A stretch of DNA of 46,872 nt from Dehalococcoidales bacterium (GTDB taxonomy: Bacteria > Chloroflexota > Dehalococcoidia > Dehalococcoidales > UBA5760), in assembly GCA_021161775.1 (NCBI GenBank), contig JAGGZY010000050.1, forward strand, positions 1 to 46,872, given 5' to 3'. This document shows, piece after piece, positions 3,692-26,540 of the stretch. Both the position numbers and the translations under genes were made by a program. The notes beneath the pieces are model-generated. The model had not been told where the DNA came from. It saw nothing but the letters and a program-made list of their open reading frames with translations, and searched no databases. Every line of letters starts with the position of its first letter. Position 1 is the stretch's first letter.

Positions 3692-4381
3692 ATGAAGATT
3701 CTGATTATTGAGGATGACTCGGAGATTGTGGAGGCAGTTTCACTGTGTTTTCAACTGCGTTGGAGTGGGGCTACCGTAATCTCAGCGACTCAGGGGGCTA
3801 AGGGGCTGGACCTGGTTGAAACTGAGACCCCCGATCTGGTTGTTCTGGATATAGGACTCCCCGATATGGACGGCTTTAAGGTTCTCCGTGAGATACGGCA
3901 GTTCTCTCAAGTGCCGGTGATAATGCTGACGGTGAGGGGTGAGGATACTGATGTAGCTAAGGGGCTGGAGCTGGGGGCTGATGACTATATAACCAAGCCC
4001 TTCAGTCATATTGAACTGCTGGCTCGGGTACAGGCAGTGTTGCGTCGTGCCCAGGGGGTGTCAGTTACCGGTGATGAGCGTCCCTTTGTTAGTGGTAAGC
4101 TCTCGGTTGATTTCGCCAGTAGGACGGTCAAGATAAATGGCCAGCCGATAAAGCTTACTTTTACCGAATACCGGCTACTCTACTATCTCATCAAGAATGA
4201 GGGGCGACTGCTTACTCACGAGAATCTGTTAAATAAGGTGTGGGGCGAGGGTTATACTGAAGCCAGAGACCTACTCCGGGTGCATATTCAGCACCTGAGG
4301 CAGAAATTAGGGGATAGCGCTGAATCCCCGAAGATTATCGTTACCGAGCACGGGATGGGCTATAAATTCGTCCGACCTTGA
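3692..4381 (+). CDS. OmpR/PhoB-family response regulator
   Basis: A 229-residue two-domain regulator. The receiver domain has acidic residues E7-D8-D9, phospho-acceptor D53 in VVLDIGLPDMDG, T80 and K102 in TKPF. The C-terminal winged helix (about 130-228) has the usual RDLLRVHIQHLRQKLG and GMGYKF. A Shine-Dalgarno-like GGGAGAGAAG precedes the ATG. No histidine kinase is encoded nearby, so its partner is elsewhere. OmpR-family proteins bind direct half-sites with 11-bp spacing; three such arrays occur in this window (4407, 5737, 17838), the first just downstream of this gene. That it binds them is inference. Confidence 0.95.
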   Translation: MKILIIEDDSEIVEAVSLCFQLRWSGATVISATQGAKGLDLVETETPDLVVLDIGLPDMDGFKVLREIRQFSQVPVIMLTVRGEDTDVAKGLELGADDYITKPFSHIELLARVQAVLRRAQGVSVTGDERPFVSGKLSVDFASRTVKINGQPIKLTFTEYRLLYYLIKNEGRLLTHENLLNKVWGEGYTEARDLLRVHIQHLRQKLGDSAESPKIIVTEHGMGYKFVRP

Positions 4382-4516: not shown

Positions 4517-5335
4517 ATGGAAAAAATTACAGTTGTTATCTCGGATTGGCAGGTATTCTTCAGGGAAGGGATACACTTCATCCTTTCCAGCGAAGATGAT
4601 ATTGAGGTCATTGGTGAAGCTACCACCAATGAGGAAACTCTGGCTCTCATTGAAGCTGACCCGCCAGCGGTGGCTATTCTAGATATGGGGCATAGCGATG
4701 TCAGTGGTGTTGAGGCAACGCGGCGGATTAAGCGAAACTTCCCCTCAGTAGGGGTAATTTTAATTATTGATGATTATGATGAGGAACAGCTTTTCTTAGC
4801 CGCCAGGGGTGGGGTGAATGCCTACATAACCAAGGAGTCTAGCCCTGATGAGCTGGTTAGTGCTGTTAGGGAGGTAACTCAGGGTAACTGCCCGATAAGT
4901 AAGGTTCTGCTCATTCCTGATATAGCTTCCCGGGTGCTTGATGAATTCCGGGAATTTCCGTTGATGGAAGGGCAGATGAGTAGCCTGCTAGCTCGCCTGT
5001 CGCCAATGGAGAACGAGCTGCTGCATCATCTCACTCAGGGAGCTTCGTCTCAGCAGGTCGCCCAGGTGCTAGATATCGCCGAGCCGGATATTCTCCATCA
5101 CCTCGGAATTATTCTGTCTAAGCTGGTAACTAACCGTCGTAACCTGGAGATGATTGAAACTGCCCAGAGCAGCCTGCGTCCTATCTCCGGGGTGAGTAAG
5201 CCCACTATGGGGTATATAACCAGGGATGAGTTTGCCAGCTTCAAACAGGATTTGATAGCGCGTCTGGAGACCTTTATCAGTCGAATTGAGATGAGTGCCG
5301 GTGGGTTAGCGGGGAGTCGGAATGATAAAGAATAG
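4517..5335 (+). CDS. NarL/FixJ-like response regulator with degenerate LuxR HTH
   Basis: A 272-residue protein. The receiver domain (about 1-125) keeps D56 in AVAILDMG and the late lysine in ITKESS. A LuxR-type HTH follows (about 160-215): LSPMENELLHHLTQGASSQQ matches the canonical LSPRE..VL..LAQG pattern, but the recognition helix (AEPDILHHLGIILSKL) departs from the usual T-V-K-x-H pattern, so DNA specificity may be altered. A 55-residue tail ends the protein. GGAGG lies 7-11 bp before the ATG. The gene is preceded by phased array copy 1 and followed by a strong terminator, so it is probably its own transcription unit under the OmpR-type regulator. Confidence 0.88.
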   Translation: MEKITVVISDWQVFFREGIHFILSSEDDIEVIGEATTNEETLALIEADPPAVAILDMGHSDVSGVEATRRIKRNFPSVGVILIIDDYDEEQLFLAARGGVNAYITKESSPDELVSAVREVTQGNCPISKVLLIPDIASRVLDEFREFPLMEGQMSSLLARLSPMENELLHHLTQGASSQQVAQVLDIAEPDILHHLGIILSKLVTNRRNLEMIETAQSSLRPISGVSKPTMGYITRDEFASFKQDLIARLETFISRIEMSAGGLAGSRNDKE

Positions 5336-5383: not shown

Positions 5384-5412
5384 CCCTCCCCCATCAAGGG
5401 GGAGGGTTTTTT
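5384..5412 (+). terminator. Rho-independent terminator
   Basis: Perfect 9-bp stem CCCTCCCCC / GGGGGAGGG, 5-base loop ATCAA, then six T. It lies 48 bp after the NarL-type regulator and ends that transcript. Confidence 0.93.
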
Positions 5413-5581: not shown

Positions 5582-5743
5582 ATGGATAACCAGAGGATGA
5601 GGGTGATGTGTGCCTGGTGTGGTCGGGATATGGGGGCAAAGGATGGGCGGGGTATCACTGGGGTGTCTCATGGCTTGTGTGAACAGTGCCGGCGTAGGTT
5701 AGAGCTGAGTATGAGGGGTAAACTGCCCTCCAATTCTTTATGA
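5582..5743 (+). CDS. Small zinc-finger-like protein (53 aa)
   Basis: ATG at 5582, TGA at 5741-5743, preceded by a purine-rich GGGAAGGGGG. The product has two CxxC pairs, C10-A-W-C13 and C33-E-Q-C36, the second in SHGLCEQC. This resembles the small cysteine module (CAWCK...SHGICPEC) seen attached to bacterial sensor and receiver proteins, so a metal-bound partner for the signalling proteins next door is possible but unproven. Its stop codon overlaps the first half-site of phased array copy 2. It is too short for routine gene calling. Confidence 0.7.
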   Translation: MDNQRMRVMCAWCGRDMGAKDGRGITGVSHGLCEQCRRRLELSMRGKLPSNSL

Positions 5744-5813
5744 AATCCTCATAGAATCTTTACGGAATATTTATCATTTTTATGCCTGCCTTTATGCTTG
5801 TTTGTTAGATTTA
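5737..5813 (+). promoter_or_regulatory. 11-bp-phased TTTAT array, copy 2
   Basis: Near-identical to copy 1 at 4407-4483 (about 71 of 77 bases the same), with half-sites at 5737, 5748, 5759 and 5770 and a TTAGAT at 5805-5810. It begins inside the stop of the zinc-finger gene and faces the 27-aa peptide and sipW. Confidence 0.65.
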
Positions 5814-5849
5814 GGTGGTAAGACTAAAGGGGGTTAAGGAAGCATAGGA

Positions 5850-5933
5850 ATGAATCAGGAAGGAACAACCCCTAAAATTAACGAAATTTTAACGCTAATT
5901 TTAGGGGTGATTAATATCGGCACCTTAAGATGA
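5850..5933 (+). CDS. Putative 27-aa hydrophobic peptide
   Basis: ATG at 5850, TGA at 5931. The product has a polar start and a hydrophobic core, INEILTLILGVINIG. AAGGA lies about 10 bp before the ATG. It sits 37 bp after phased array copy 2 and 30 bp before sipW, so it would be the first reading frame of the fibre transcript. It may be a leader peptide, a membrane micropeptide or chance; the parallel with the 32-aa membrane peptide after array copy 3 is the main reason to list it. Confidence 0.35.
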   Translation: MNQEGTTPKINEILTLILGVINIGTLR

Positions 5934-5963
5934 GAATAGGAATTAGATGATGAGGTTTGGACA

Positions 5964-6764
5964 ATGAAAAAGGTGGCTACTCGGATAACTTTAATAGTGC
6001 TCCTGGTTATTATTGGGGGTTTTGCTTTTCTGAAACTCTCGCCCAACTACAACATATACCTGGTAAGAAGCGAGAGTATGACCCCTAACCTCAATATGGG
6101 GGATATGGTAATTACTGGCCCTGTCAATGGGCTAATAGGGGGAGAGGTGAAACCGGGAGCAGTTGTAACCTACCAGAGGGAAAAGGGACTGGTTACCCAT
6201 CGGGTGTTGTCAATTAATGGAGATACCCTGGTAACCAAGGGGGATGCCGTTGAGGACCCCGACCCTTGGTCGGTTTCCATGTCGGATATCAGGGGTGTCT
6301 ATCTGTTTCGGCTGCCTTCGATAGGTTACGTATCGAATTTCATTAAGACTAAAACCGGCTGGTTATTATTGATAGTGGCACCATCGGCGGTGCTTTTCGG
6401 ACTGCTAATTAGAAGCATTCTCAAGGAGGTGCGGAAGAAGGCTCAAGATGGGGCTCAGGGGGTGGGGATAGTAACTGCCGAAGCGACTAAGTCAGATGAA
6501 ACCACCCCGCAACCGATTGCGCCCACCGGAGGTTCTGGTAAGGAGGTGGCTTACCCCGCGGCTAGGATGGACAGTTCGGAGATGGTAGCTCAGGGGTTAG
6601 TGATGCTTATCCGGGATATGGTTAAAGATTTACGGAGTAGTCCTGATGTAGTAGCTCAGCAGAAAGGAACCGTGGCTCCAGGTACAGCAGAAGTGGATGA
6701 AACTACGAAGCATCTGGTGGCTGCAATTAAAACTGCGGTAGCTGAACTACGAGGCGGTTATTAA
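5964..6764 (+). CDS. sipW: SipW-type (ER/archaeal-type) signal peptidase I with C-terminal extension
   Basis: Membrane protease that removes signal peptides, here most likely from the camelysin-like proteins encoded next. An N-terminal membrane segment (about 8-25) is followed by catalytic S38 in SESMTPNLNMGD. H79 in VTHRV stands where bacterial enzymes have lysine, and D94 lies in TKGD; Ser-His-Asp is the ER/SipW type. A second membrane segment lies at about 132-152. The last 110 residues, rich in Q, A, T and P with an ELRGGY end, are longer than in Bacillus SipW and are unexplained. The neighbour genes and the phased array upstream point to a dedicated surface-fibre operon. Confidence 0.9.
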   Translation: MKKVATRITLIVLLVIIGGFAFLKLSPNYNIYLVRSESMTPNLNMGDMVITGPVNGLIGGEVKPGAVVTYQREKGLVTHRVLSINGDTLVTKGDAVEDPDPWSVSMSDIRGVYLFRLPSIGYVSNFIKTKTGWLLLIVAPSAVLFGLLIRSILKEVRKKAQDGAQGVGIVTAEATKSDETTPQPIAPTGGSGKEVAYPAARMDSSEMVAQGLVMLIRDMVKDLRSSPDVVAQQKGTVAPGTAEVDETTKHLVAAIKTAVAELRGGY

Positions 6765-6779
6765 ATATCAGCTTTAAAT

Positions 6780-6813
6780 AAAGGAGGTGATGACAGTCAT
6801 AACAGAGAATTAG
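6780..6813 (+). promoter_or_regulatory. Perfect anti-anti-SD sequence followed by a 7-codon frame
   Basis: AAAGGAGGTGAT (6780-6791) is fully complementary to the usual 16S rRNA 3' end. It overlaps an ATG that opens only 7 codons (MTVITEN). It may be a ribosome standby site or leader peptide controlling the camelysin gene 73 bp later. The region 6814-6885 is A-rich and holds the AAAAGGAGAAAG site of that gene. Confidence 0.4.
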
Positions 6814-6885
6814 AGAAACTACGCAGCGGGTTGTTAGCTCTTAGGTAACTAACGAACAAAAAACAAAAAATAAAAGGAGAAAGAA

Positions 6886-7506
6886 ATGAACAAAAAGATA
6901 ATGGGATTAGCGGTGGCGGCAGCCCTGGTAGTAGGGCTGGTAGGTAGCGGCACCTGGGCATACTTCTCGGACACGGAGCAGAGCACGGACAACAGTCTTT
7001 GTGCTGGAACCCTAGACCTCAACATTGACGGTGGTAACACTGCCAGTAACACCTTCTCGGTAACCGATGTTGCCCCTGGTGACAGTGGTAACGGTAACAA
7101 TGTGCTGGCTAATGTAGGTAGCCTGAATGGTGAGCTGGATGTTGAGTTTTCAGCGATTACCAACACTGGTGGAACCAGTGGTGAGTATGGGGATGGTAGT
7201 GGAGACCTGGGTGGAGTAGCTGAGATAGCGGTGTATCTGGATGTTGACCAGAGTGGTACTTGGACGGATGGAGACATTGGGCTTAAGTCTGATGGTACTA
7301 CCTACAATCATCCAACAGCTCTGGACTACGACACTATCGACAACTATGACAGTGAGAGCTGGGATGCGGTTGAGACAATGGCGGCATCAGCGGCTGATGA
7401 CTTTGTGGCTCTGTGGCGAGTGCCTACTTCAGCGGGGAACAATATTCAGGGTGATTGCGTAAGCTTTGATGTTACCTTCATTCTGGAACAAGCCGACGCT
7501 GACTAG
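6886..7506 (+). CDS. Camelysin/TasA-like SipW-dependent surface protein
   Basis: A 206-residue secreted protein. The signal peptide MNKKIMGLAVAAALVVG... ends in the SipW-type motif GTWAYFSDTEQ, and the mature protein starts with repeated N, T, G and D residues (LDLNIDGGNTASNTF). Camelysin/TasA proteins form extracellular fibres in Bacillus; the same role is likely here. Key stretches are VAPGDSGNG and ALWRVPTS. The closely spaced sipW supplies the expected protease. The segment ITNTGGTSGEYGDGSGDLGG to the C-terminus is repeated almost unchanged in the protein at 8649-9755. A strong AAAAGGAGAAAG site precedes the ATG. Confidence 0.88.
   Translation: MNKKIMGLAVAAALVVGLVGSGTWAYFSDTEQSTDNSLCAGTLDLNIDGGNTASNTFSVTDVAPGDSGNGNNVLANVGSLNGELDVEFSAITNTGGTSGEYGDGSGDLGGVAEIAVYLDVDQSGTWTDGDIGLKSDGTTYNHPTALDYDTIDNYDSESWDAVETMAASAADDFVALWRVPTSAGNNIQGDCVSFDVTFILEQADAD
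7171..7217 (+). repeat. 47-bp identical segment shared with 9426-9472
   Basis: The coding segment for GTSGEYGDGSGDLGG is identical at the DNA level in the two camelysin domains (second copy 9426-9472), within a longer, slightly diverged repeat. This indicates recent duplication or gene conversion. Confidence 0.85.
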
Positions 7507-7542
7507 TAGTTGGTGAGAGCAGAACTAACGGTTAAAGTTTAT

Positions 7543-7576
7543 CGGGGGCTGGGGCCTGGATAAGCCTCAGTCCCCG
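7543..7576 (+). other. Strong GC hairpin after the camelysin gene
   Basis: A 13-bp stem (two G-T pairs) with an 8-base loop. The following bases are A-rich rather than T-rich, so it is not a standard terminator for the plus strand. It more likely protects the 3' end of the upstream mRNA and sets a lower level for the downstream genes. Confidence 0.55.
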
Positions 7577-7619
7577 GGGACAAAAAATCATTGATAAATA
7601 GGTAAAGGAGGTGCCGATA

Positions 7620-8624
7620 ATGAAGAAAGCCCTGCTTCTGCTAGGGGTAATTCTAGGCTCACTACTGAGTGTAGTGGGCACTGGCACCTATGCCTATTTA
7701 AGCGATACCGAAATCTCGGTGAATAACAGTTTGACAGCCTGGGTGGAAGAGACAGCTAAGTTCTTTGTCACCGACGATAGTAGCTGTCCGGATAAGGTGT
7801 TTAAGTATGACGAATCAGGTACCTTTGTGAGTACTTTTGACCTTCCCGCGGGTGATATGAAGCCTTACGGGATGGCGGTGGTGGATAATGATGTTTATGT
7901 CCTTACCCGAAAGGATAAGCAGGTGTATCACTACACCAGCTCCGGGGAACTGGTGGAGATTTCTCGGGTATTACGAGATTCTGCCGGGGGTGGGCTGTGC
8001 CATCCTTCGGGTCTGGCAGTTGATGGTAATGATATGTGGCTGGTAGAGGAAAGTGGCAGCCTGTGTCGCTACTCGCTATCAGCAGCATTCCCCGATGACG
8101 GTAATCCCCTTAATGCGGCTCAGGAGATTAGCCTTTACTATATTAATGACGATGCCAGTGGCTTAGCTATTGATGATAATTATCTCTATGTATTGGATGG
8201 CTGGTTTAAGCGGTTCTTTAAGTATCCTCGCGCTGGATATCCTAAAGGTATCCCTCAGGAAATCCTCTCCATAGAGTCGGAACTAGAAGGGTCCCAGCAG
8301 CCGATGGTAAATCTGAATAAGACAGACTCCGAGACAGGGTTCGTAGAAAGACTCGCTCCTCAGCAGGTGGACCCTCAAAAGTCAGCGGTAAAGAAATTTG
8401 CCAAGCTGGGGTTGGTCTCCAGGGAGTTAAGGCAGGTCAACGGGAAAAAGCTGGGTCAGCCTACCGGGGCAATGTTGGATGATAGCTCAATGTGGGTGGT
8501 AGATAAAACTAAGGTGAAGGTATTTGAGTATGATGTGAGCCAGTTGTTCTCGGGGTTTGGCAGAATAAACGCTGAATGGGAATTCGACCTTGAGCATGAT
8601 AATCATAAACCGGAGGGTATCTAA
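7620..8624 (+). CDS. SipW-dependent secreted protein with NHL/YncE-like beta-propeller
   Basis: A 334-residue protein. The signal sequence ends in GTGTYAYLSDTEIS, the same SipW-type motif as the camelysin gene. Repeated units follow, such as DMKPYGMAVVDNDVYVLTRK, HPSGLAVDGNDMWLVEE, DASGLAIDDNYLYVLDG and QPTGAMLDDSSMWVVDK, each about 45-60 residues; they look like propeller blades with P-x-G-hydrophobic starts. The ATG at 7620 is chosen because AAAGGAGGTG lies 7-8 bp before it; a GTG at 7611 lies within that site. It may cap or anchor fibres, but the ligand is unknown. Confidence 0.8.
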   Translation: MKKALLLLGVILGSLLSVVGTGTYAYLSDTEISVNNSLTAWVEETAKFFVTDDSSCPDKVFKYDESGTFVSTFDLPAGDMKPYGMAVVDNDVYVLTRKDKQVYHYTSSGELVEISRVLRDSAGGGLCHPSGLAVDGNDMWLVEESGSLCRYSLSAAFPDDGNPLNAAQEISLYYINDDASGLAIDDNYLYVLDGWFKRFFKYPRAGYPKGIPQEILSIESELEGSQQPMVNLNKTDSETGFVERLAPQQVDPQKSAVKKFAKLGLVSRELRQVNGKKLGQPTGAMLDDSSMWVVDKTKVKVFEYDVSQLFSGFGRINAEWEFDLEHDNHKPEGI

Positions 8625-8648
8625 ATTTGGGATAGATATTAAACGATT

Positions 8649-9755
8649 ATGACTGGAGTAAAGAAGAAAAAATTAACCAGGCGGATGCCGGGATGGTTGA
8701 TGATAACCCTGCTGGTAGCTGTTGGGGCTGGAGCGGCAGCCGGTATCATTTTCGCCGGTGATATTGCTGGTGAGATACCGGTAGCGGTAAGCCCGGCGCT
8801 CGCCATTCGGGAGGCTAGCTGGTATGGTGCTGGGGTACTGCCTTCAGTAGTGCCGATTACGATACACGACATCGGGGTTAGTGCCCCTGACCGTGAGTTG
8901 GCTCAGGTTAATGATAATGGCACCGAGTTTGGTGCTGCTGCCGAGATAAACAGCGGTGACCAGATTGCCCTTAAGCTGTATATTGAGAATCATAGTGACC
9001 AGGCAATGCCGGGTAAGCTGGAGCTGGCGGCTCCTTCAGGATTGACCCTGGAGGTCTATGCCCCGGCGGTCTCCGTTATTAAGCAAGTAACTCGCCTTAA
9101 GGCAGATAGCTGGATGTTTACTATTCCGGGGAACACTACCGGCATAGGAGCGAATTTCGTCACTGTGGTTATTGCGGCTAACGATACCCTGACCTCCTTT
9201 TCGACTATTTCGGGTAAATTAACCCCCTTTACCGGTCACGCTGGTTTCAGCGGGAGCAGCTTGGACCTAGACCTTAATATTGATGGTGGGGATGTGGCAG
9301 TAACCACCTTCTCAGCGTCCAATATGGTCCCCGGTGACAGTGGCTATGGTCGCAGTGAGCTGTCCAATGTGGGAACACTGGACGGGGTGCTGGATGTTGC
9401 CTTTTCGGCGATTACCAATACTGGCGGAACCAGTGGTGAGTATGGGGATGGTAGTGGAGACCTGGGTGGAGTTGCCGAGATAGCGGTATATCTGGATGTT
9501 GACCAGAGTGGCGATTGGACGGCAGGCGATATTGGGCTTAAGTCTGATGGTACTACCTACAGTCACCCGACGGCTCTTAACTACGATACTATCAATAGTT
9601 ATGACAGAGAGAGCTGGGATGATGTTGAACCGTTGCTAGTAGCCGCAGCGGATGACTTTGTGGCTCTGTGGCGGGTGCCTACCTCAGTGGGGAATGACAT
9701 TCAGGGTGACTGTGTAAGCTTCGATGTTACCTTCACCCTGAGACAGTCGCCTTAG
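8649..9755 (+). CDS. Membrane-anchored protein with C-terminal camelysin-like domain
   Basis: A 368-residue protein. The basic start MTGVKKKKLTRRMPG precedes a membrane segment (WLMITLLVAVGAGAAAGIIF). There is no AYFSDTE motif, so it is probably not a SipW substrate of the usual kind. Residues about 70-195 look like an immunoglobulin-like or DUF-type extracellular region (DQIALKLYIENHSDQAMPG). Residues about 205-366 repeat the mature part of the 6886 camelysin-like protein at very high identity, from LDLDLNIDGGD to QGDCVSFDVTFTL. It could anchor or nucleate the fibre through this shared domain. It ends 13 bp from the convergent phage genes, with no terminator visible. Confidence 0.75.
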   Translation: MTGVKKKKLTRRMPGWLMITLLVAVGAGAAAGIIFAGDIAGEIPVAVSPALAIREASWYGAGVLPSVVPITIHDIGVSAPDRELAQVNDNGTEFGAAAEINSGDQIALKLYIENHSDQAMPGKLELAAPSGLTLEVYAPAVSVIKQVTRLKADSWMFTIPGNTTGIGANFVTVVIAANDTLTSFSTISGKLTPFTGHAGFSGSSLDLDLNIDGGDVAVTTFSASNMVPGDSGYGRSELSNVGTLDGVLDVAFSAITNTGGTSGEYGDGSGDLGGVAEIAVYLDVDQSGDWTAGDIGLKSDGTTYSHPTALNYDTINSYDRESWDDVEPLLVAAADDFVALWRVPTSVGNDIQGDCVSFDVTFTLRQSP

Positions 9756-9768
9756 ATTTGGTAATTCC

Positions 9769-9981
9769 TCAGCTAAATACGGCGGTGATTACTGCCTCTT
9801 TCGGATTATGCTCATCAAAGAAGGTAACCACCAGCTTCCTCCCCGGGGTCATTGCCGACTCCGGCAGGTTTCTGGCTACAGTAATATCCTCCAGATAAGC
9901 CTGGTGGCTGCCAGTTAACTGAATGGTTGCCTTATAATCAGTAGCGTTGAATCTCTTCAGTGTCGCTTTGCTTAGTCTCAT
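9769..9981 (-). CDS. Small phage-module protein (70 aa), function unknown
   Basis: A 70-residue protein (start MRLSKATLKRFNATDYKATI, end EAVITAVFS). It overlaps the stop of the 9978-11996 gene by 4 bp (ATGA), so it is translationally coupled and is the last gene of the virion operon. The sequence looks like a small beta-rich domain. I do not recognise a family. Confidence 0.7.
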   Translation of the reverse strand: MRLSKATLKRFNATDYKATIQLTGSHQAYLEDITVARNLPESAMTPGRKLVVTFFDEHNPKEAVITAVFS

Positions 9982-11996
9982 CTGACCCTCCTTATACTCT
10001 TCCCAGGGCTAGCCTCGCCTCGTATTTTCCACGGCGGGGGTGATAAACCAAATCCAGCCCGAGGACCCTCCTTATTCTCACCATTAAGCCCGGCGCGGCT
10101 ATCGGTCAGTTCAATAACATCGTATAGCTGCTGACCGCAGTTGGGTGGGGTGTGGATAATACCCCCGCTGGAGGCTATCTCGGCTTGTCTTAGATATACC
10201 TCTCCTCGTTGCTGAGCTTGGGACACGCCGTTGATATTCCGGTCCTCAAGCTGGCGTAATCTATCATAGAGTCGGTTTATCTCATCCCAAGAGAAGGAGT
10301 CAACTATCATCGGCTTATCGTTTACCGGGTCATAGCCCTCGACCTGAACCCGATTAAGCTCCCAGCCCCCCTTTAGGTATCTCCCTTCAACTATGGGGTG
10401 GGATGAGCCATAGGAGTAAACCGAGTTGTCATTGGGGAGGGGGTTTACCACATAGGCTTTACTGCCCTCAATAAATATTACATCGGGGACGAAGGAGAGC
10501 AGCTTGCTGATGACAGCGTCTCCTCGGCTCCCCGGGGGAATGGTAAAATCGGGATAGTAGCTATCCAGAACCGATGACTGGGATTTAATCTCCAGCTTCA
10601 GTCCACATCTTGCCAGCACTAGAGCCAGGATGTCCTTGACACTCATCTCATCGGAGTCTTTATTCCAGCGGAACTGACAGCGGGCGCGCCAGTGTTTAAT
10701 CAGGCTCCAGCCGTCGGAGGCATATAGAATCAGACTGGCGATACCCCCGGCGCTGGTATGCTCACTGGCATCAATCCAGAACTCGGCGCCCGGGCTAACC
10801 TCGTTGCCCCCGGAGGTAACATAGCCGGGGCTGAACTGAAGCTCACTGCCGAGAGCTAGAGCTTTAAGGGAGCCTTCTCCCGGTGAGGAGTACTGCCCGT
10901 CGCTGTTATTTAGCTCAACCGTCAGCCAGCTCTCTCTTTGGCTGAGCTCCTGTCTTACCCTTAATATATCGGCGGTTAGATCGAGGCTCTCGGCGGTGAG
11001 CTTTGCTCTCCATACCCCGCTGGGGTTGGCTAGCCAGTCGTAGTTACCGTGATAGGCGATGGCTAGCCCGTACTCACTGGATAGGTTAAATGGCACCGGC
11101 TCATGCCACCGATTATCAGCGAAATCGGTGTCGGGGATAGTATATGACCAGAAGGGGCGGCTATAGGCTTCGGTGCCGCTAAATTTCTCGATAAAGAAAC
11201 CACGGTAGACATCGGGTTTAGCCAGAAAGGCGTGATGATACTCAAAGCCGCTGTCCGACGGTGCTGAAGCCAGCGGAGTTAGCTCTGACCAACTACCGGT
11301 GGGGCTCGCTCCACCATCACCATAGATGAGGGACCATAGTTTGAAGTTGCCGGCGGTGTCCTTACCGGTAATAAACAGATTCCAGTCGCCATCATAGACG
11401 GTTGCCACCCCGGACAGGTCACCGGTGGTCTTATCCCAGGCGATTTTATTCTGCCAGCTACCGTTTAGATACTGCTTAACATAGAGAGTGCTTTGGTCAG
11501 CGAAAAATAGCGCCAGAGAGCCGTTGGGCTGGTAGGCGGCGGTGATACCATAGATAGCTGATGTCGGGGAATAGTCGATAAGCTCGGGGGACCCCCAGCT
11601 AGCGCCGTAGTCGGTGCTTTTTGACTGGTAAATCTGCCGGGTTCTTTTTATCCAGAAGATGCTGACCTCAGCCCCCAGCGAGCAGCTGGTGGTAGTGACG
11701 ACATCATACTGATTGTGATATACCCACTGGCTAAAGTCTGCCCCCGGGCCGGGGTTAACCACCCGTTGTCGATAAAGCTTTCGGGAGTCGGCAGGTGGGG
11801 TAACCCTTACCCTGATGAGAGAGCCATCACCGGGGATAGTCAGGCTATGAAAATAGTCTGCCTCAGTGCCGGCATACAGCCTTTCCCAGTTTAAGCGGGT
11901 AATATTAGCCAGCCGACTTTTGGCTTTGATATTGACATAGGGGGTATAACTGGCTTCCTGTTGGGCGGTGAGTAGTGATGGTGATAGGCTTCTCAA
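9978..11996 (-). CDS. Phage tail/baseplate-like protein with Asp-box propeller
   Basis: A 672-residue virion protein. The N-terminal part (about 1-45) ends in YVNIKAKSR. Residues about 85-320 resemble a sialidase-type propeller, with one clear Asp box STDYGASW. The C-terminal half (about 355-640) resembles hub proteins of long-tailed phages, with RQELSQRESWLTVELNNSDG and DILALVLARCGLKLEIKSQS. It starts at TTG 11996, 6-8 bp after AAAGGAGG. It would join the particle to a cell-surface sugar or protein. No separate tube, sheath or tape-measure gene is present, so tail type is unclear. Confidence 0.7.
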   Translation of the reverse strand: MRSLSPSLLTAQQEASYTPYVNIKAKSRLANITRLNWERLYAGTEADYFHSLTIPGDGSLIRVRVTPPADSRKLYRQRVVNPGPGADFSQWVYHNQYDVVTTTSCSLGAEVSIFWIKRTRQIYQSKSTDYGASWGSPELIDYSPTSAIYGITAAYQPNGSLALFFADQSTLYVKQYLNGSWQNKIAWDKTTGDLSGVATVYDGDWNLFITGKDTAGNFKLWSLIYGDGGASPTGSWSELTPLASAPSDSGFEYHHAFLAKPDVYRGFFIEKFSGTEAYSRPFWSYTIPDTDFADNRWHEPVPFNLSSEYGLAIAYHGNYDWLANPSGVWRAKLTAESLDLTADILRVRQELSQRESWLTVELNNSDGQYSSPGEGSLKALALGSELQFSPGYVTSGGNEVSPGAEFWIDASEHTSAGGIASLILYASDGWSLIKHWRARCQFRWNKDSDEMSVKDILALVLARCGLKLEIKSQSSVLDSYYPDFTIPPGSRGDAVISKLLSFVPDVIFIEGSKAYVVNPLPNDNSVYSYGSSHPIVEGRYLKGGWELNRVQVEGYDPVNDKPMIVDSFSWDEINRLYDRLRQLEDRNINGVSQAQQRGEVYLRQAEIASSGGIIHTPPNCGQQLYDVIELTDSRAGLNGENKEGPRAGFGLSPPPWKIRGEASPGKSIRRVR

Positions 11997-12009
11997 ATTA
12001 AACCTCCTT

Positions 12010-12204
12010 TCAGCTCCCTGTCTGCCCTGGCACCCAGGGCGTTCCCCAGAAAAGATGTCCTAGCAGGATACCGAGGGCAACGCTTAGCATAATCCAGATA
12101 AGTGGCTGACGGTGGTAGCAGTCCCGGATAATATAGGTCCAGGGGCGGCCGCCTACCCGGGACCACAGGGCTTTGTACAATTGAGAGAGTCGAGCTCGCT
12201 TCAT
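12010..12204 (-). CDS. Phage-module membrane peptide (64 aa)
   Basis: MKRARLSQLYKALWSRVGGR followed by one hydrophobic segment (LIWIMLSVALGILLGHLFWG). Its ATG overlaps the TAA of the gene before it (TAATG), so the two are coupled. Single-span size and position fit a holin-like or virion membrane peptide; the function is not established. An overlapping frame at 11993-12262 is a shadow. Confidence 0.6.
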   Translation of the reverse strand: MKRARLSQLYKALWSRVGGRPWTYIIRDCYHRQPLIWIMLSVALGILLGHLFWGTPWVPGQTGS

Positions 12205-12395
12205 TACTTCTCCTTAAACCGTTTAATTGCCCTCTCGCCGAAGTATTCGATAATGACGGCACTGATTAGCCAGCTAAGCGGTTGGGGAATTACTACCCCC
12301 TTCATTACACAAAAGCCATAAATGATGCATCCCCAGACGATAATAAATGGCCTGACGATGCTTTTTACAAACGTTATTCGCTCGTTTAGGGTCAA
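12204..12395 (-). CDS. Phage-module membrane peptide (63 aa), holin-like
   Basis: MTLNERITFVKSIVRPFIIV start, two hydrophobic segments (about 14-32 and 36-50) and a basic end (AIKRFKEK). The N-terminal part resembles small phage holin proteins with an R-P-x-I/V motif. It is coupled to the downstream 64-aa peptide. Confidence 0.6.
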   Translation of the reverse strand: MTLNERITFVKSIVRPFIIVWGCIIYGFCVMKGVVIPQPLSWLISAVIIEYFGERAIKRFKEK

Positions 12396-12413
12396 TTTTC
12401 CCGCCTCTCCTGG

Positions 12414-13004
12414 TTAATCGATAAACAGCTGATGATCTCTGAGCTGTTGCCTTCGTCCCAACCGCTTCAGGCTATCCCTGAAGGCGGTGAGTCTTTCTTC
12501 CCCCCAGCTTCGGTACTGGTCGGCGGTCATCTCTCCCCCGACATTTACCCGGTTAATGCTGGCGACAGCCTGGCTGATAACCGCGTAGCCGCAGGCCCCG
12601 GTAACTACTAAATCCTCATACTTAGTGGGGACAGTAGAACTGTTAGTGTCAATAGTGTGGAGCACTCCGTAGTAGATACGGCAGTTAGTGCCGTTGGGGG
12701 TATCGCCACTGATTATAACCAGGACATCCCCCCAGATAGAGAAACGCTGGTACTGGGTGGGGAAGGCACCCAGGGGGTATTCTACGGCTTGAACCATAAT
12801 CCGCTCAGTCAGACTGGAGATATCCACGGCTCGGGAGGTGCTTATGGTGGGTAGTATAGCCTCGGCGGGTAGGGGGGTTCTCTCCGATAGTTCCCTCAAG
12901 GCGTGGTTAATATGTCGGGTTAGTTCATCATCTGACCACTGGTAGGGGGTAATCTCATCCTTAAGGTTGTTCCTGACCATGGTTATCATCTCCGATAGAT
13001 TCAC
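12414..13004 (-). CDS. Phage adaptor/head-tail connector-like protein
   Basis: A 196-residue protein. The N-terminal pattern LSEMITMVRNNLKDEITPYQWSDDEL with H-I-N-x-A-L-R-E-L is typical of small connector proteins that dock to the portal. It overlaps the LamG gene by 4 bp. In phages this class closes the head and joins it to the tail. The assignment rests on pattern and position. Confidence 0.65.
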   Translation of the reverse strand: MNLSEMITMVRNNLKDEITPYQWSDDELTRHINHALRELSERTPLPAEAILPTISTSRAVDISSLTERIMVQAVEYPLGAFPTQYQRFSIWGDVLVIISGDTPNGTNCRIYYGVLHTIDTNSSTVPTKYEDLVVTGACGYAVISQAVASINRVNVGGEMTADQYRSWGEERLTAFRDSLKRLGRRQQLRDHQLFID

Positions 13005-14062
13005 TGCTTTACCTCCTTAGACGGCATTCCGGTTTTCCCGGTGCCTTTGGGCAGTTTCATATCGCTGGTGCCGGCTCGGGCGGCGATTTTAGCCCTGAGT
13101 CGGTCTAAACCCAGGCTGGCTTCACCAGCCACGATTAGGCTTAGTAGGGCAGCGATAGCCTCACTCCTGTAACTGCTGTCGGCGACCAGGGAGAATCGGG
13201 ATAAACTGGCTATATCCAGGCTTGAACCAACATCAATAAGGGGTATTTCTCGGCTTAATAGCTCCTCAATATCGCTACCAGCTTCGGCTAAGGTAATACC
13301 CCGGTTCTTCAAACTCTCTACCCCCGCCTTTAGAGGAATGTTGCCCGTAGTCCAGAGAGCCCCGTGAATTATGCCGTCATTATGATTATCTGTCTCATCA
13401 TAGGCAGTAGAACCCGAGCCTTCATTCATTAACCATAAGCCTACCGTATTAGCATCCTTAGGGAATTGCCTACCCACTCCATTATTCCAGTTAGCGGCTA
13501 TTTCAGCGGGGGTTCTGGGCGTGTCAGAGATACGAACCTGAGAAATGAGGCCGTTGACCGTATAGCCAGTGCTCCCAATATACCAATGTCCAGAATGTAT
13601 CAAGTCGGTGTTATCTCTCTCCACAGTAGATTTTAGAAATCCATTTAGATACAACCTTGCTTTATCGTGGTCGTAAGTAGATGCAAAATACACCCATTGG
13701 TTCTTGAGTAAATCATTCTCATAAATTCTTGGACGAGGCGCACTCCCTTGTGTAGTCGTTATCTTCCATTCTAAGTCGGTGTTATATTTAGAGTAGAATA
13801 AGACATTTCTATCGTCATTTGTCCAAACAAAACGCATATAATCCTTTGACATTTCTGATGGCAAATAGGGAATTTTTACCCACACCTCAATCGTAATCGC
13901 ATCAGTGATGTCCAAAGAGGGGTTATTGCCACAATCTATATAGTCATCTACCCCATCAAAGCTAAGGGCAGAACCATAGCCTTCTCTAACTATGAGGTCT
14001 CGGTCGAGAATTGCCTCTATCCCCTCACTTCCGCTATCGCTGGTTTGTATATCAGTACTCAT
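13001..14062 (-). CDS. Phage structural protein with inserted LamG (concanavalin-like) domain
   Basis: A 353-residue protein. Short repeats of about 18-20 residues with the pattern D/A-x-G/S-x-x-x-E-x-L-x-R-x-x-x-L run at the start (SDSGSEGIEAILDRDLIV) and from about residue 243 on (AEAGSDIEELLSREIPLI, DVGSSLDIASLSRFSLV and others). Between them, residues about 33-240 are a LamG/concanavalin-like domain (ALSFDGVDDYIDCGNN, ITIEVWVKIPYLP, VGLWLMNEGSGS). LamG domains bind sugars or proteins, so this is a candidate receptor-binding or decoration protein. The inserted part is visibly more AT-rich than its flanks. Confidence 0.75.
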   Translation of the reverse strand: MSTDIQTSDSGSEGIEAILDRDLIVREGYGSALSFDGVDDYIDCGNNPSLDITDAITIEVWVKIPYLPSEMSKDYMRFVWTNDDRNVLFYSKYNTDLEWKITTTQGSAPRPRIYENDLLKNQWVYFASTYDHDKARLYLNGFLKSTVERDNTDLIHSGHWYIGSTGYTVNGLISQVRISDTPRTPAEIAANWNNGVGRQFPKDANTVGLWLMNEGSGSTAYDETDNHNDGIIHGALWTTGNIPLKAGVESLKNRGITLAEAGSDIEELLSREIPLIDVGSSLDIASLSRFSLVADSSYRSEAIAALLSLIVAGEASLGLDRLRAKIAARAGTSDMKLPKGTGKTGMPSKEVKQ

Positions 14063-14115
14063 CGTTTTCTTCCCTCGTCCCCGGGGGTAGTCAAAGCTAC
14101 CCCCGGTTAGGATTC

Positions 14116-14631
14116 TCAGCTTAGGGTTATGGATACCTCCAAGGTCCAGGTACCTGAGGTTTTGGTGCCCAAATTCTCTACCTTACGGTTGAGACAGATA
14201 GAGCTAGTTGATTGTTTGACCACCCATTCGTTCCAGGTATAGTTGGCGTCATCTGAGCCAAAGCTGGCTTTAAAGGTTGCCTGCTGTGATGTTGATGTGG
14301 GGTAGTTGGCCTCCATACCCTTATAGGTTTTGTTAGTTGCGGCTTGCAGGTCGGTTTGGGTAGCCTCGGCGGCGGTGCTACTGTCACCGACCCCGATTTG
14401 AGCGTGGGGGTTATCGTAGATATGGTCGGCCCCAGAGACTACCCCGGTAATAAGGTCCCACATCTCGTCAATTCCGGAGTTTAGCAGGCAGTTGTGTTCC
14501 CCCTCTATCACCTCATAGGGCTCAAACTGCTGGTGAAACTCGCCCTCCCGGCTCTGGTAAGGCTTAATGTCCTCGTGATATTTGCTGAGCCGATAGTGGC
14601 AATACCAGTTGGCGTGTTCTCTATTTTCCAT
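14116..14631 (-). CDS. Phage structural protein, function unknown (171 aa)
   Basis: Lies between the capsid and LamG genes. The segment IGVGDSSTAAEATQTDLQA is typical of phage proteins annotated as tail-fibre or virion components, and the C-terminal half reads as beta strands (TWTLEVSITLS end). An AGGAGATG site precedes the ATG at 14631. A head-decoration or fibre role is inference. Confidence 0.6.
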   Translation of the reverse strand: MENREHANWYCHYRLSKYHEDIKPYQSREGEFHQQFEPYEVIEGEHNCLLNSGIDEMWDLITGVVSGADHIYDNPHAQIGVGDSSTAAEATQTDLQAATNKTYKGMEANYPTSTSQQATFKASFGSDDANYTWNEWVVKQSTSSICLNRKVENLGTKTSGTWTLEVSITLS

Positions 14632-14652
14632 TCTTTCATCTCCTGTGTCGAG

Positions 14653-15576
14653 TTAATCGGTAATCCCGATTAGGGCGGCTGCCTTAATCGCGGAGAATAG
14701 GGCCAGTGAGCAATACCACTTAATTCGAGTTCGGGAGGCGTCCTTGGTTTCCAGTGAGCCGATAGGCTCTACCTGCAGGTATCCTGGACTGGTTAAGCCA
14801 CAGAGGGCTCCTTCTCCGAACTGGACGGCATAAATGGTGGAGCAACTGCCGCCGGTGGTAGCTGTCTCTAGGCTGGAATCGAGGGTATGGGTATCCAGAA
14901 TCCAGTCATTGACTCCGACGGGAATACTGTCCCATAACTGGACAAAGTTACCGAAGCTGTCTTTTTCGGTTACCATCATTCCTGAGCCTGAGGCTCGGAC
15001 GAGGTTATTAATCTTCCTCCGGGTGCGGCGGCTCATCAGGAGTATATCGGGTTTACCCCCCTTTACGGCGTCAATAAGCTCATCTAGCTTATCCAGGGTG
15101 AGAGTAGCTCCGGTAGCCCCCATCGCGATTACCTGACTGCTTGCGGTGGTGGTATCAATTAGCTTCCTAAGGCCATCAAACTGCTTGGCATTGACGGCGG
15201 GGTCTCCATAGATAACCGTCTCCTCGAATTTGTCCTTGAGTGCCTTTGCCTTAAGTTCAATGACCGCCGCTTCCAGGTCCTGGATATTAGAGCGGGTTGC
15301 CTTGAGGAAATTATCAATATCGGCGTCACCGCCCATAATCTTTAGGGTAGTGGTTACCTGTTCAAAGGTTGGGGTTGACTCGTTCCAGGGGTCGCCAACA
15401 TCGTAGAAATCAATCGAGGGCAGGGTGTTCTCCTGGTTATAGGTTAATCCATTACCCACAATCTCAATAAAGGGGAGTTTCTGCAGTATCGGTGAGTTCT
15501 TGATGATGGTTTCCACGACTCCCTGAAGGAGCATATTATTAGATAGTTTGGATGCCTCGTTTAGTGTTAGTGCCAT
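14653..15576 (-). CDS. Phage major capsid protein
   Basis: A 307-residue protein. It begins MALTLNEASKLSNNMLLQGV and contains the HK97-fold style features of the 'phage major capsid' families: an N-terminal helix, SPILQKLPF, then DPWNESTPTFEQVTTTLKIM and repeated beta-rich segments, with SRRTRRKINNLVRA. It directly follows the scaffold gene (no gap) and the portal, the usual head-gene order. No protease gene is seen. Confidence 0.85.
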   Translation of the reverse strand: MALTLNEASKLSNNMLLQGVVETIIKNSPILQKLPFIEIVGNGLTYNQENTLPSIDFYDVGDPWNESTPTFEQVTTTLKIMGGDADIDNFLKATRSNIQDLEAAVIELKAKALKDKFEETVIYGDPAVNAKQFDGLRKLIDTTTASSQVIAMGATGATLTLDKLDELIDAVKGGKPDILLMSRRTRRKINNLVRASGSGMMVTEKDSFGNFVQLWDSIPVGVNDWILDTHTLDSSLETATTGGSCSTIYAVQFGEGALCGLTSPGYLQVEPIGSLETKDASRTRIKWYCSLALFSAIKAAALIGITD

Positions 15577-16047
15577 TTATTTATCACCTCCTATGGCGTA
15601 TCGAATCTTCTGTCGTGGTGACAGGGATGAGTGGTCAAGTGGTGTTCGTGGTGGAGCCCCGGCAGGAATCCGGGTAGCTTGAATTTCAGTCTCCAGGCTC
15701 TGTCTCACTTGGCTAATCATGCCTTTAGCCTGCCTCAGTGACTCGTTGATAGCCGGGATGCTGTCGCCGGTGATAAGCTCCGCTGGCACCTCAGGGTTGG
15801 TCTGCATTACCATTGTTCGGTAGTTGACTAACGCCTCGCCTAGGGAATTATCTGCCGTCTTGAGTTTTTCGGTTGACTCGGTGAGCCTCTGTTCCAACTC
15901 AGTAATGTGGCTATTGGCTTGGGTCAGCTCCTCATTCTGCTGAGCTACCTGGCCCTCAAGCTTGGCAATTTGGGATGCCAGGCTCTCTTCAGTCTCGGTA
16001 TTTTCAGGAACTGGGTCTTGATGTTGCTTTATCTTGTCATCGGTCAA
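15577..16047 (-). CDS. Phage capsid scaffold-like protein
   Basis: A 156-residue protein. A long coiled coil (about 20-75, SLASQIAKLEGQVAQQNEEL and following) and a basic C-terminal tail (SPRQKIRYAIGGDK) are typical of scaffolding proteins that bind the inside of the procapsid. It lies between portal and capsid and abuts the capsid start. Confidence 0.75.
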   Translation of the reverse strand: MTDDKIKQHQDPVPENTETEESLASQIAKLEGQVAQQNEELTQANSHITELEQRLTESTEKLKTADNSLGEALVNYRTMVMQTNPEVPAELITGDSIPAINESLRQAKGMISQVRQSLETEIQATRIPAGAPPRTPLDHSSLSPRQKIRYAIGGDK

Positions 16048-16085
16048 TGGTCGTCCTCCTCTAGGTTATTTTCTAATACCCGCAG

Positions 16086-17453
16086 CTAGGATTGGTTAGC
16101 TCTCCCTCTCGCTTCATTCCGAGCCGGTTTGGTATTAAGCTCCTTGTTCATGCTGAGGATAATCTGGCGTTCCTCAAGCCAGCGGTTAAATTCTGCCTCA
16201 GGGTCTTTAACCCCGACCTCATCCATAGCGCGTCGTCTGGAGTGGACACCGTTCTGAATCAAGGTCTGCTCGTTGGCTACTAGCCGCTCCTTGTCCTGGG
16301 GCAGGAGCGGTCCCCAGACTACTCGCAGATGGTTATTACCGAAGTTCTCATGATGGTATTTTTCGAGGAGTTTGAGGATTAGCCGGTTTCGCTGGTTGTA
16401 GGCGGCACTGCGGATAAGACGCTTCCGTTTTACCTTCTGTAGCAGGGGCTGAAGCTCAAGCTCAAGGGCTACCCCGGACAGGTTCTTCTCGGTACCACCG
16501 AAAGCAGAGCGGGGTGACTCTGAGATGTCATGCAGGGTCCGATAGAGCAGGTTGAGGTAATCGATATGTAGCCCGACACCACCCCCTTGAAGCAGGTCTA
16601 GCAGATAGGCTTTAGCATCCTCAGGTATATTCCAGACTGCCCCTGGCTTAACCGCGATATCCTCAGATTCCTCGATGTTCTCCAGTACGGCGATAGGGTT
16701 ACCCGATAGCTCTAGTATTCTTGATAGCTGGCTCATTGCCCGGTTAAACTCACGCTGGGGCGGTATTAGCTGGCGCAAATCCGACATTCCCCAGAATTTT
16801 TTAGGCTCCCTCAGATTAGGATAGATAATAAACGGGATAAATCCGTAGGGATTAGGCTTACTGGTTACCAGATTGTTATCTATCCAGAGCTCAAACCCCT
16901 CGGTGGTCCATAACTCGGTAATCTCAGCGGTTTTCCCCTTGGGGGTTACCTTATACAGGATTTCGGTTTCGTCTGAGGTCAGCCGATATTTAGAGGCGAC
17001 CCGCCATAGTCTGGAGGTGTCGTCCCCCACCCACCAGGTGTGGATGCCCTGGATATCGGGGGCAGTAATCCTGACCCGTTTGGTCGCCGCGTCCCAGATA
17101 ACCTTAAAGCAGGCATCTCCCAGGAGGGCACAGTCAATCTCGGTCTCAAAATCAAGTTGTTCTAGATTGTTGTCTTCGTATACCTGGTATAATGCCTGCT
17201 CAGCCCGCTGCGCCCTGGCTCTAGCCTCATCGGAGTCATCGATGGGGTCAACAGCAAAGGTTACTCCTGACATCAGATATGAGGTAAGCTTATCGATAAT
17301 TACCTTGGCATAGTTAAAGACCAGGCGTTTCTCACCTCGCCGGGGATAACCCTCCCACTGCTGACCGTGGTAGAAATCAAGCAGTTCCTGATAACCCTTG
17401 AGCCGACTCAGGTCGTGGTGATTTAGCTGTGCTGGAGTAAAACCTTCATTCAT
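16086..17453 (-). CDS. Phage portal protein
   Basis: A 455-residue protein of the SPP1-gp6-like portal group: FYHGQQWEGYPRRGEKRLVF near the start, the middle stem with IIYPNLREPKKFWGMSDLRQ and RAMSQLSRILELSGNPIAVL, then SGVALELELQPLLQKVKRKR. Portals form the ring through which terminase packs DNA. The gene overlaps the HTH gene before it by 8 bp. Terminase genes normally adjoin; here they are 7 kb away, across plus-strand genes. Confidence 0.88.
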   Translation of the reverse strand: MNEGFTPAQLNHHDLSRLKGYQELLDFYHGQQWEGYPRRGEKRLVFNYAKVIIDKLTSYLMSGVTFAVDPIDDSDEARARAQRAEQALYQVYEDNNLEQLDFETEIDCALLGDACFKVIWDAATKRVRITAPDIQGIHTWWVGDDTSRLWRVASKYRLTSDETEILYKVTPKGKTAEITELWTTEGFELWIDNNLVTSKPNPYGFIPFIIYPNLREPKKFWGMSDLRQLIPPQREFNRAMSQLSRILELSGNPIAVLENIEESEDIAVKPGAVWNIPEDAKAYLLDLLQGGGVGLHIDYLNLLYRTLHDISESPRSAFGGTEKNLSGVALELELQPLLQKVKRKRLIRSAAYNQRNRLILKLLEKYHHENFGNNHLRVVWGPLLPQDKERLVANEQTLIQNGVHSRRRAMDEVGVKDPEAEFNRWLEERQIILSMNKELNTKPARNEARGRANQS

Positions 17454-17733
17454 GGCTAACCTTCTTTAATGCCCTCTGCACAGTTCGTTGACTAACGCCA
17501 AACAGTAGGGCTAGCTCCTTTATTTTTCTTCCCTTGACATATAGCTCTAATATTTCCCTATCCCGCAGCTTTCTAAGGTAGCGTTGCTTACCTCCGGGCT
17601 CGTCATAGATACACCTCTCGAAAGGGCAGTTGAGACAGGAATTGGCGAACTCACAACCGTTATCATGGTAGTGGCAATACTCTGGCGGTAGGTCTAGTTC
17701 ATCGGAGCTCACTATCAAATCCTTAGTTCTCAT
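17446..17733 (-). CDS. Phage-module cysteine-rich helix-turn-helix protein
   Basis: A 95-residue protein from the ATG at 17733. The N-terminal half has cysteines in CHYHDNGCEFANSCLNC and FERC, likely binding zinc. The C-terminal half is an HTH (REILELYVKGRKIKELALLF, then GVSQRTVQRALKK). The frame is open to 17802, but the predicted promoter at 17769-17810 lies over that part, and the ATG at 17733 is about 40 bases after the predicted transcript start. It heads the portal-scaffold-capsid operon. A regulator or terminase-small-like role is possible. Confidence 0.75.
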   Translation of the reverse strand: MRTKDLIVSSDELDLPPEYCHYHDNGCEFANSCLNCPFERCIYDEPGGKQRYLRKLRDREILELYVKGRKIKELALLFGVSQRTVQRALKKVSHE

Positions 17734-17768
17734 ATCTATCTCACCCGAAGGGATGGTCAGGATGTTAG

Positions 17769-17810
17769 AATAGCACATATGTTCTAATATAATCAATAGC
17801 ATTTTGTCAT
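17769..17810 (-). promoter_or_regulatory. Phage promoter copy 2 with GAAC-N4-GTGC dyad over the -10
   Basis: On the minus strand ATGACA (17810-17805), 18-bp spacer, TAGAAC (17786-17781). The 18-base motif at 17769-17786 differs by one base from that at 26541-26558 before the terminase genes. Its core GAACATATGTGC resembles the GAAC-N4-GTTC LexA box of Gram-positive bacteria. SOS control is inference. Confidence 0.55.
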
Positions 17811-20035: not shown

Positions 20036-20083
20036 TGGTGTAAGTCGATAGGTAAATCGGTTACAATGATAGGAAAGACCCCC

Positions 20084-20112
20084 TGTAAAAATAGTTTATT
20101 TTCCTTTATAAT
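20084..20112 (+). promoter_or_regulatory. Possible promoter of the second IPT gene
   Basis: TATAAT at 20107-20112 with a poor -35 (TGTAAA at 20084-20089) 17 bp upstream; 42 bp before the GTG at 20155. Confidence 0.4.
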
Positions 20113-20154
20113 GTAATCTCGTAGGCTAAGGAAATAGAGAAGGCAGGTTTATAA

Positions 20155-21843: not shown

Positions 21844-21943
21844 TTAGCTTCTCCGGGCGCTCCGTGGTGAGTGTGGGGTGGTAGTTTTAACCAGCAGTGC
21901 CAAGGCTTATTATCTGGTTGGGGTGATGCTGTCTCTTCTTGAA
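21844..21943 (-). pseudogene. Decayed 3' fragment of a terminase large subunit gene
   Basis: On the minus strand it matches the last 33 or so codons of the intact terminase at 24752. The end reads LALLVK-T-T-T-P-H-SPRSARRS against LALLVKAATQYSPRNAKGS, then the stop. About 45 bases are missing exactly between two ATGAGC direct repeats of the intact gene, which removes the G-H-D-D nuclease segment. Similarity stops near 21943, so only the tail of the gene is present. Confidence 0.8.
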
Positions 21944-21982
21944 AATTTGTCTCCTCGGCATTTTATTTCCCAGCAAAGGGCG

Positions 21983-22012
21983 TTGACAGAGCGCTTCCTT
22001 AGATGATACACT
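21983..22012 (+). promoter_or_regulatory. Promoter of acs-satP
   Basis: TTGACA (21983-21988), 18-bp spacer, TACACT (22007-22012). It lies inside the inserted cassette, so the cassette brought its own promoter. Confidence 0.6.
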
Positions 22013-22094
22013 TTGCTTGCGAGATCAACAAAAACACTGTTTACTGAGGCGGCTTGATAGAGCCTGTCTTGAGGAAAATTGAAGGAGTTTGAAC

Positions 22095-24062: not shown

Positions 24063-24117
24063 AAAACGGTAGCCCCCGGTAATAATTCACTAATCAATAA
24101 ATGGAGGTTATTTCAGC

Positions 24118-24681
24118 GTGTCAAAAGATGATGTAGTATGGGCAAACCCAGGTGCTCTAGGATTAGCTGGCTTCGGTTTTAATACTATTCTGTTGAATAT
24201 ACATAATGTTGGTTTGATGCCCAACACTATGCCCCTGATTTGGGGGTTCTTCTGGGGGGGGATGGCTCAGGTTATCGCTGGAATAATCGATGCTCGGCGA
24301 GGAGACACCTTTGGCTTGACTGCATTCACATCCTACGGTGTTTTCTGGATAGGTCTTGCCTTCGCTTTCTTCCTGCAATGGAGGGGTCTGGTCACCATTG
24401 ATAATGCCAGCATGGCCTGGACGATGGTAGTCTGGGGCATATTCACCGGCTACATGACAGCTGGCACTGTGAAAATATCCAAGATACATATAATTATATT
24501 TGCTTCGCTAACACTACTCTTTGGTCTGCTGGCAGCACACTTCTTTGGTGTTTTACCAGCCCATGTTGCCGGAGGAGTGGGGATATTCGTCGGTGGTTCA
24601 GCAGTTTATGCCTCAGCAGCAATAATCATGAACGACAAATACGGACGCTGGGTACTCCCTATCGGGCTGGCTAAGAAGTAG
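24118..24681 (+). CDS. satP: SatP/YaaH (GPR1/FUN34) family acetate transporter
   Basis: Membrane carrier for acetate and related acids. A 187-residue protein with six membrane segments and the family signature NPGALGLAGFGFNTILLN near the start. It starts at GTG 24118, with GGAGG 10-14 bp before it. It lies 55 bp after acs, so uptake and activation of acetate are encoded together. Confidence 0.93.
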   Translation: MSKDDVVWANPGALGLAGFGFNTILLNIHNVGLMPNTMPLIWGFFWGGMAQVIAGIIDARRGDTFGLTAFTSYGVFWIGLAFAFFLQWRGLVTIDNASMAWTMVVWGIFTGYMTAGTVKISKIHIIIFASLTLLFGLLAAHFFGVLPAHVAGGVGIFVGGSAVYASAAIIMNDKYGRWVLPIGLAKK

Positions 24682-26122: not shown

Positions 26123-26132
26123 TATTTGCCTG

Positions 26133-26501: not shown

Positions 26502-26540
26502 CTTGGTGCTGACTCCTGAACTGGCTAGCTGGAATTTCAT

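Follow-up and report, generated by a model that had tools for sequence, protein, structure and literature searches.

How a fibre of the TasA type is fastened to the cell that makes it, and in which direction its subunits then point, is a question raised by a small cluster of genes (positions 5582-9755) in a 46,872-nucleotide stretch of DNA from an uncultured Dehalococcoidales bacterium (GenBank assembly GCA_021161775.1, contig JAGGZY010000050.1). This whole stretch, referred to below as the window, is contig C15 of a 0.93 Mb genome that is 99% complete. A preliminary description of the locus had noted that one camelysin domain, together with a 47-bp stretch of identical DNA, occurs both in a SipW-type secreted protein and in a membrane-anchored protein lacking the SipW motif, with a propeller protein encoded between them, and had proposed a base or nucleator for an extracellular fibre built from the same fold. 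Here we argue that the locus is probably a SipW-dependent, TasA-type donor-strand fibre operon, in which the secreted domain protein would form the shaft, the propeller protein a donor-only tip and the anchored protein an acceptor-only membrane base (Table 1).

In the TasA fibre the mature N-terminal strand of one subunit (residues 28-38) enters the groove of the next (PMC9674648; this paper, PMC10151520, PMC9715654 and PMC7395162 are cited throughout for what their available passages state). The first donor strand is given by TapA, which has a complete immunoglobulin (Ig) fold and cannot itself accept a strand (PMC9674648, PMC10151520), while a proline box of TasA is located where protomers meet, close to donor residues A28/F29 (PMC10151520). 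As to attachment, a role of Bacillus subtilis TapA in cell-wall anchoring is only presumed (PMC9674648) and, for the archaeal thread filament, the direction of the strand tail, toward or away from the cell, is given as unknown (PMC9715654, Fig. 4).

The putative shaft protein matches the Peptidase_M73/camelysin family PF12389 over residues 3-204 (E 4.9e-16, 59.6 bits against a cut-off of 22.5), carries a SipW-type signal (TIGR04088, 37.4 bits against a cut-off of 19, 1.9e-9) and matches the TasA model below the cut-off (1.8e-8); 'camelysin' is used here as the name of a fold family and implies no protease function. The product of the adjacent sipW gene matches TIGR02228 above the cut-off (E 4e-20) and the SipW model NF046067 below it (1.4e-16), and extends for about 100 residues C-terminally past the peptidase domain. 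The domain of the shaft protein recurs in the anchored protein (residues 207-367), where an ungapped alignment has 125 identities in 161 positions (77.6%) and the DNA is 80% identical. The preliminary description is thus borne out in finding the same domain in both proteins and, since the two are 77.6% identical, also in supposing that they share a fold. With regard to which fold this is, a low-confidence AlphaFold2 (AF2) model of the anchored domain retrieves TasA (5of1) at a Foldseek probability of 0.33 and E 0.4, and the sole matches of the domain profile among PDB chains are AbpX and TasA, both weak (E 0.05-0.19), which agrees with a TasA-type fold without proving it.

The 47-bp identity is exact, and is accompanied by further exact runs of 31, 23 and 23 bp, all of them in register; a run of this length arose by chance in 0.6% of codon-column shuffles of the alignment (p = 0.006). 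Plain conservation of the sequence was considered as its source and ruled out, the paralogue on contig C1 being different at the same stretch: this protein is as near to the shaft protein in amino acids (77%) but has exact runs of just 16-20 bp. The two window copies are better explained as recent duplicates, or as having exchanged DNA (recent duplication with possible local gene conversion), because the synonymous distance between them (dS 0.69) is far below those found in comparisons with the C1 paralogue (2.3 and 3.5). The paralogue itself (L033, G000:C1, 775-1452, minus strand) stands alone and has a proline-rich C-terminal tail, and no sipW was found on its 11-kb contig.

Between the two domain genes lies the propeller gene, whose AF2 model is indeed a beta-propeller (predicted local distance difference test, pLDDT, mostly 60-80 in the blades; Foldseek probability 1.00 to many propellers). 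The propeller protein, too, bears a SipW motif (TIGR04088, 20.2 bits against a cut-off of 19), which the preliminary description overlooked. It has, at the same spacing, a donor segment like that of the shaft (YLSDTEISVNNSLTAW), and hidden Markov model (HMM) classification detected no camelysin domain in it. A SipW signal, a donor segment and the lack of an acceptor domain are TapA-like sequence features, the body being a beta-propeller in place of the Ig fold of TapA, and by these features the propeller protein is the predicted holder of the TapA-like property, that of a donor without a groove.

The anchored protein presents the opposite arrangement. It has a single hydrophobic segment, at the N-terminus, and lacks the SipW motif, as the preliminary description had it, matching neither TIGR04088 nor the donor HMM; an Ig-like module and a linker come before the domain, and the whole protein has no Pfam match. 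Its homologous domain keeps the interface proline and the NxG motif.

Taken together, these features suggest a simple mechanism. Cleavage of the shaft protein by SipW would free its N-terminal donor strand, which would then enter the groove of the next shaft subunit. Likewise cut by SipW, the propeller protein would act as a TapA-like initiator and end up as the tip, since a protein with a donor but no groove belongs at the end whose groove needs filling. Conversely, the anchored protein, having a groove domain without a donor strand, could only receive a strand; it would take that of the last shaft subunit and tether the fibre to the membrane as an acceptor-only base, with the donor strands pointing toward the cell. 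Fibre formation, insertion of the donor into the anchored domain, the identity of the tip end and the subunit ratio are all what we infer from sequence. On the last point, an RNA hairpin 3' of the shaft gene, in a region where an Rfam search of the fibre locus matched no family, probably makes the two downstream genes less strongly expressed than the shaft gene. In most loci a strong hairpin lies 3' of the first pilin gene (z to -6.2) and none occurs between sipW and the pilin, a contrast significant by the Mann-Whitney test (p = 0.0005) among loci that are related to one another; this pattern fits an abundant shaft and scarce ends.

If the anchored protein is a base, a counterpart would be expected in related loci. 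When 139 genomes of the order were searched with a profile, 31 proved to contain the domain; the loci were retrieved and their open reading frames sorted with a pair of HMMs, of which one describes the signal with the donor and the other the domain. The order donor plus domain, donor-only, domain-only, with sipW in the cluster and its position disregarded, recurs at ten loci in nine genomes (the window, G003, G002, G008, G012, G064, G069 with two loci, G093 and G121). The peptidase gene lies 3' of the first pilin in G121 and at one G069 locus, a second sipW precedes the donor-only gene in G012 and G093, and a variant in G139 has sipW between the donor-only and domain-only genes. Most domain-only proteins are of about 460-580 amino acids; they have a conventional signal peptide, which the domain follows immediately, and a transmembrane (TM) segment at the C-terminus. 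Importantly, 27 pilins have 20-26 residues between the hydrophobic core of the signal and the start of the domain, and 16 acceptor-only proteins have 8-15. The two ranges do not overlap, and the median difference, 12 residues, is near the 11 of the TasA donor strand. All 17 acceptor-only domains (these 16 canonical ones and that of the window) have the proline of the proline box and the N of NxG, and acceptor-only proteins occur also in two genomes of other families of the class (G159 and G232). Four short proteins first called acceptor-only (L114:6087, L118, L121 and L123:7336), some with a SipW-like remnant, were moved to the divergent pilins because they are placed among pilins on the tree. 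The syntenic recurrence of a donor-less, membrane-anchored domain protein supports the 'base' of the preliminary description. Its 'nucleator' is very improbable: membrane position and a common fold could be adduced for it, but nucleation in this family, by TapA, works through strand donation (PMC9674648, PMC10151520), the donor is lacking in the window's anchored protein and in all 16 canonical anchors, and nucleation would require that filling of the groove trigger a neighbour.

The window's anchored protein is nevertheless no member of the canonical, C-terminally anchored family. On a tree of 53 domains the 16 canonical proteins form one clade (100/100), whereas the window's anchored domain groups outside it with its own pilin and the C1 paralogue (99/91); forcing it into the clade is rejected (approximately unbiased test, p = 0.0027), and its TM segment is N-terminal. 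No canonical anchor was found in the window's genome. The N-terminal 190 residues, comprising the TM segment and Ig-like module, occur in six copies in this genome, including that of the window (others lie at L057, G000:C54, 9433-17820, and L058, G000:C22, 1578-2135), and have two marginal matches (E 1e-4 to 6e-4) across the order's 138 other genomes. The simplest reading would be that the usual anchor disappeared from the window's lineage, which made a new one by joining a copy of the shaft domain to its own display module, although the canonical gene may instead sit in an assembly gap. The role of anchor thus looks to have been re-invented and, because it was apparently re-created in one lineage from unrelated parts, this suggests that the role is needed. 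We would tentatively extend the argument to a dedicated membrane-anchored, acceptor-only base in Dehalococcoidia, and possibly in haloarchaea, as a sortase-free tether that fixes polarity, with loss and rebuilding in the window's lineage, but put this at somewhat less than an even chance.

As regards haloarchaea, domain proteins without a SipW motif adjoin pilins in several SipW loci, some of them having twin-arginine (Tat)-type leaders and ambiguous N-termini, so that a haloarchaeal version of the base model is a lead and only suggestive. Two of these proteins, L066:11693-13054 and L078:15296-16576, have an N-terminal TM segment and a C-terminal camelysin domain without a SipW motif beside SipW and pilin genes, a layout like that of the window's anchored protein, and in the haloarchaeal SipW-dependent pilin L065:4767-6506 an apparent beta-propeller is inserted within the camelysin domain.

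Several points weigh against the proposed fibre. For the anchored protein, the AF2 model obtained from an 11-row alignment is of low quality (pLDDT 45, predicted template modelling score 0.37), too weak to judge whether the groove is open or filled in cis by linker residues 195-206, and a Foldseek search with this model was uninformative. Some of the proteins sorted by the classifier HMMs had also served to train them. At many SipW loci no acceptor-only gene was detected, in some cases because the contig ends and in others apparently because there is none. Finally, the donor segment overlaps the SipW recognition motif, and its conservation in the propeller protein may therefore partly reflect cleavage.

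This last overlap also speaks for the likeliest of the alternatives, namely that the propeller protein stands outside the fibre, being a SipW substrate secreted in its own right, such as a binding protein or an enzyme; this would be compatible with an anchored base. The body of the donor-only protein moreover varies among loci: it is an NHL-like propeller in the window and its G003 homologue, a kelch protein in G002, whose G008 counterpart is of the same length, and something else in others. A variable body on a fixed donor is, however, the expected look of an adhesive tip, the donor-only gene usually lies directly upstream of the anchor gene (4-59 bp apart or overlapping), and a donor-only cap has a precedent in archaeal Saci_0405, for which that role is proposed (PMC9715654). 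We regard a propeller outside the fibre as unlikely, while giving it real weight.

A second alternative makes the anchored acceptor domain an assembly regulator, holding new shaft subunits by their donor strands and handing them on in the manner of a membrane-bound chaperone. A groove without a donor suits such transient capture equally well, and Bacillus cereus has, in CapP, an assembly factor that resembles a chaperone and is partly associated with the wall (PMC13082335). Against this, the TasA monomer is described as soluble and as complementing itself (PMC9674648), so that a holding chaperone is not obviously needed, and the long linkers and C-terminal TM segments of the relatives look like tethers, which makes a regulator rather improbable. 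We find it distinctly improbable, again, that the anchored protein is an ordinary surface protein with a borrowed domain that never contacts the fibre. In the same genome other copies of its N-terminal module stand alone or are fused to DUF11 repeats or to a PKD domain, so that it is a general display module, but acceptor-only anchors recur beside pilin genes in many genomes, and the window's protein has the same operon position, a copy of the local pilin domain and the interface proline.

Table 1. Features of the fibre locus and of the adjoining upstream region of the window.
Feature	Position	Strand	Basis or remark
Two upstream response-regulator genes	3692-4381 and 4517-5335		Upstream of terminator 5384-5412
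Intrinsic terminator	5384-5412	+	9-bp GC-rich stem, then T run; splits upstream response-regulator gene from fibre operon
Small open reading frame, 53 aa, CxxC..CxxC, zinc-ribbon-like	5582-5743	+	Translation; operon membership uncertain
sipW, SipW-type signal peptidase (archaeal/ER type), 266 aa	5964-6764	+	TIGR02228, NF046067
Putative shaft subunit (pilin), 206 aa: SipW signal, donor strand, camelysin/TasA-type domain	6886-7506	+	PF12389, TIGR04088
Predicted shaft donor strand, residues 26-37, YFSDTEQSTDNS	6961-6996	+	Alignment; matched to TasA donor strand 28-38 (PMC9674648)
47-bp identical stretch, shaft copy	7171-7217	+	Identical to 9426-9472
RNA stem-loop, 14-bp stem, 3' of shaft gene	7542-7577	+	z -3.8 and -4.2
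Putative donor-only protein, 334 aa: SipW signal, donor segment, directly then beta-propeller	7620-8624	+	TIGR04088, AF2/Foldseek, HMM classification
Propeller-protein donor segment, YLSDTEISVNNS	7695-7730	+	HMM classification
Putative membrane-anchored acceptor-only protein, 368 aa: N-terminal TM, Ig-like module, C-terminal camelysin domain	8649-9755	+	
N-terminal TM and Ig-like module of anchored protein	8691-9230	+	6-copy family in genome
Camelysin/TasA-type acceptor domain of anchored protein, residues 207-367	9267-9749	+	77.6% identity to shaft domain; tree
47-bp identical stretch, anchored-protein copy	9426-9472	+	Identical to 7171-7217

Elsewhere in the window, on the minus strand (9978-17802 and 24752-26540), lie phage-like or gene-transfer-agent-like structural genes, including a major head protein (PHROG, 3.8e-72), a portal protein (1.5e-43) and a terminase-like protein, which are split by host-like genes on the plus strand (18491-24681). 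Between the portal and terminase genes are two tandem TIG/IPT-domain surface proteins of similar layout with C-terminal hydrophobic segments (18491-20035 and 20155-21843).

None of the papers available mentions SipW together with Dehalococcoidia, and the proposed fibre is best set beside systems known from other organisms. It shares with the tapA-sipW-tasA operon of B. subtilis the SipW-type peptidase, the TasA/camelysin-type domain, the N-terminal donor segment of the shaft and a separate donor-only protein, but the latter has a beta-propeller where TapA has an Ig domain, and a membrane-anchored acceptor-only protein, present here, is not described in the available passages of PMC9674648 and PMC10151520. 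The sipW-bsaABCRSD operon of Clostridium perfringens (PMC7395162) likewise combines SipW, a polymerising protein of the BsaA family, accessory secreted proteins and a two-component system at the locus; it differs in that BsaA is mainly extracellular and not tightly cell-bound, the functions of bsaB and bsaC are open, and the passages available report no acceptor-only subunit anchored in the membrane. The TasA/CalY/CapP system of B. cereus resembles the window in its camelysin-type subunits and surface-associated assembly factor, although CapP, a DUF4047 protein that a repeat domain holds in the cell wall, is not a copy of the subunit domain (PMC13082335). Donor-strand filaments are formed also by the archaeal bundling pili (AbpA/AbpX of Pyrobaculum) and threads (Saci_0406/Saci_0405), for the latter of which the available text of PMC9715654 describes no acceptor-only membrane base; the polarity proposed here corresponds to 'hypothesis 2' of that paper. 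An acceptor-only membrane subunit paired with a donor-only secreted one would predict polarity, assembly order and an anchor for the family, and a fibre of three such parts would explain how TasA-type fibres are attached to the cell and oriented upon it.

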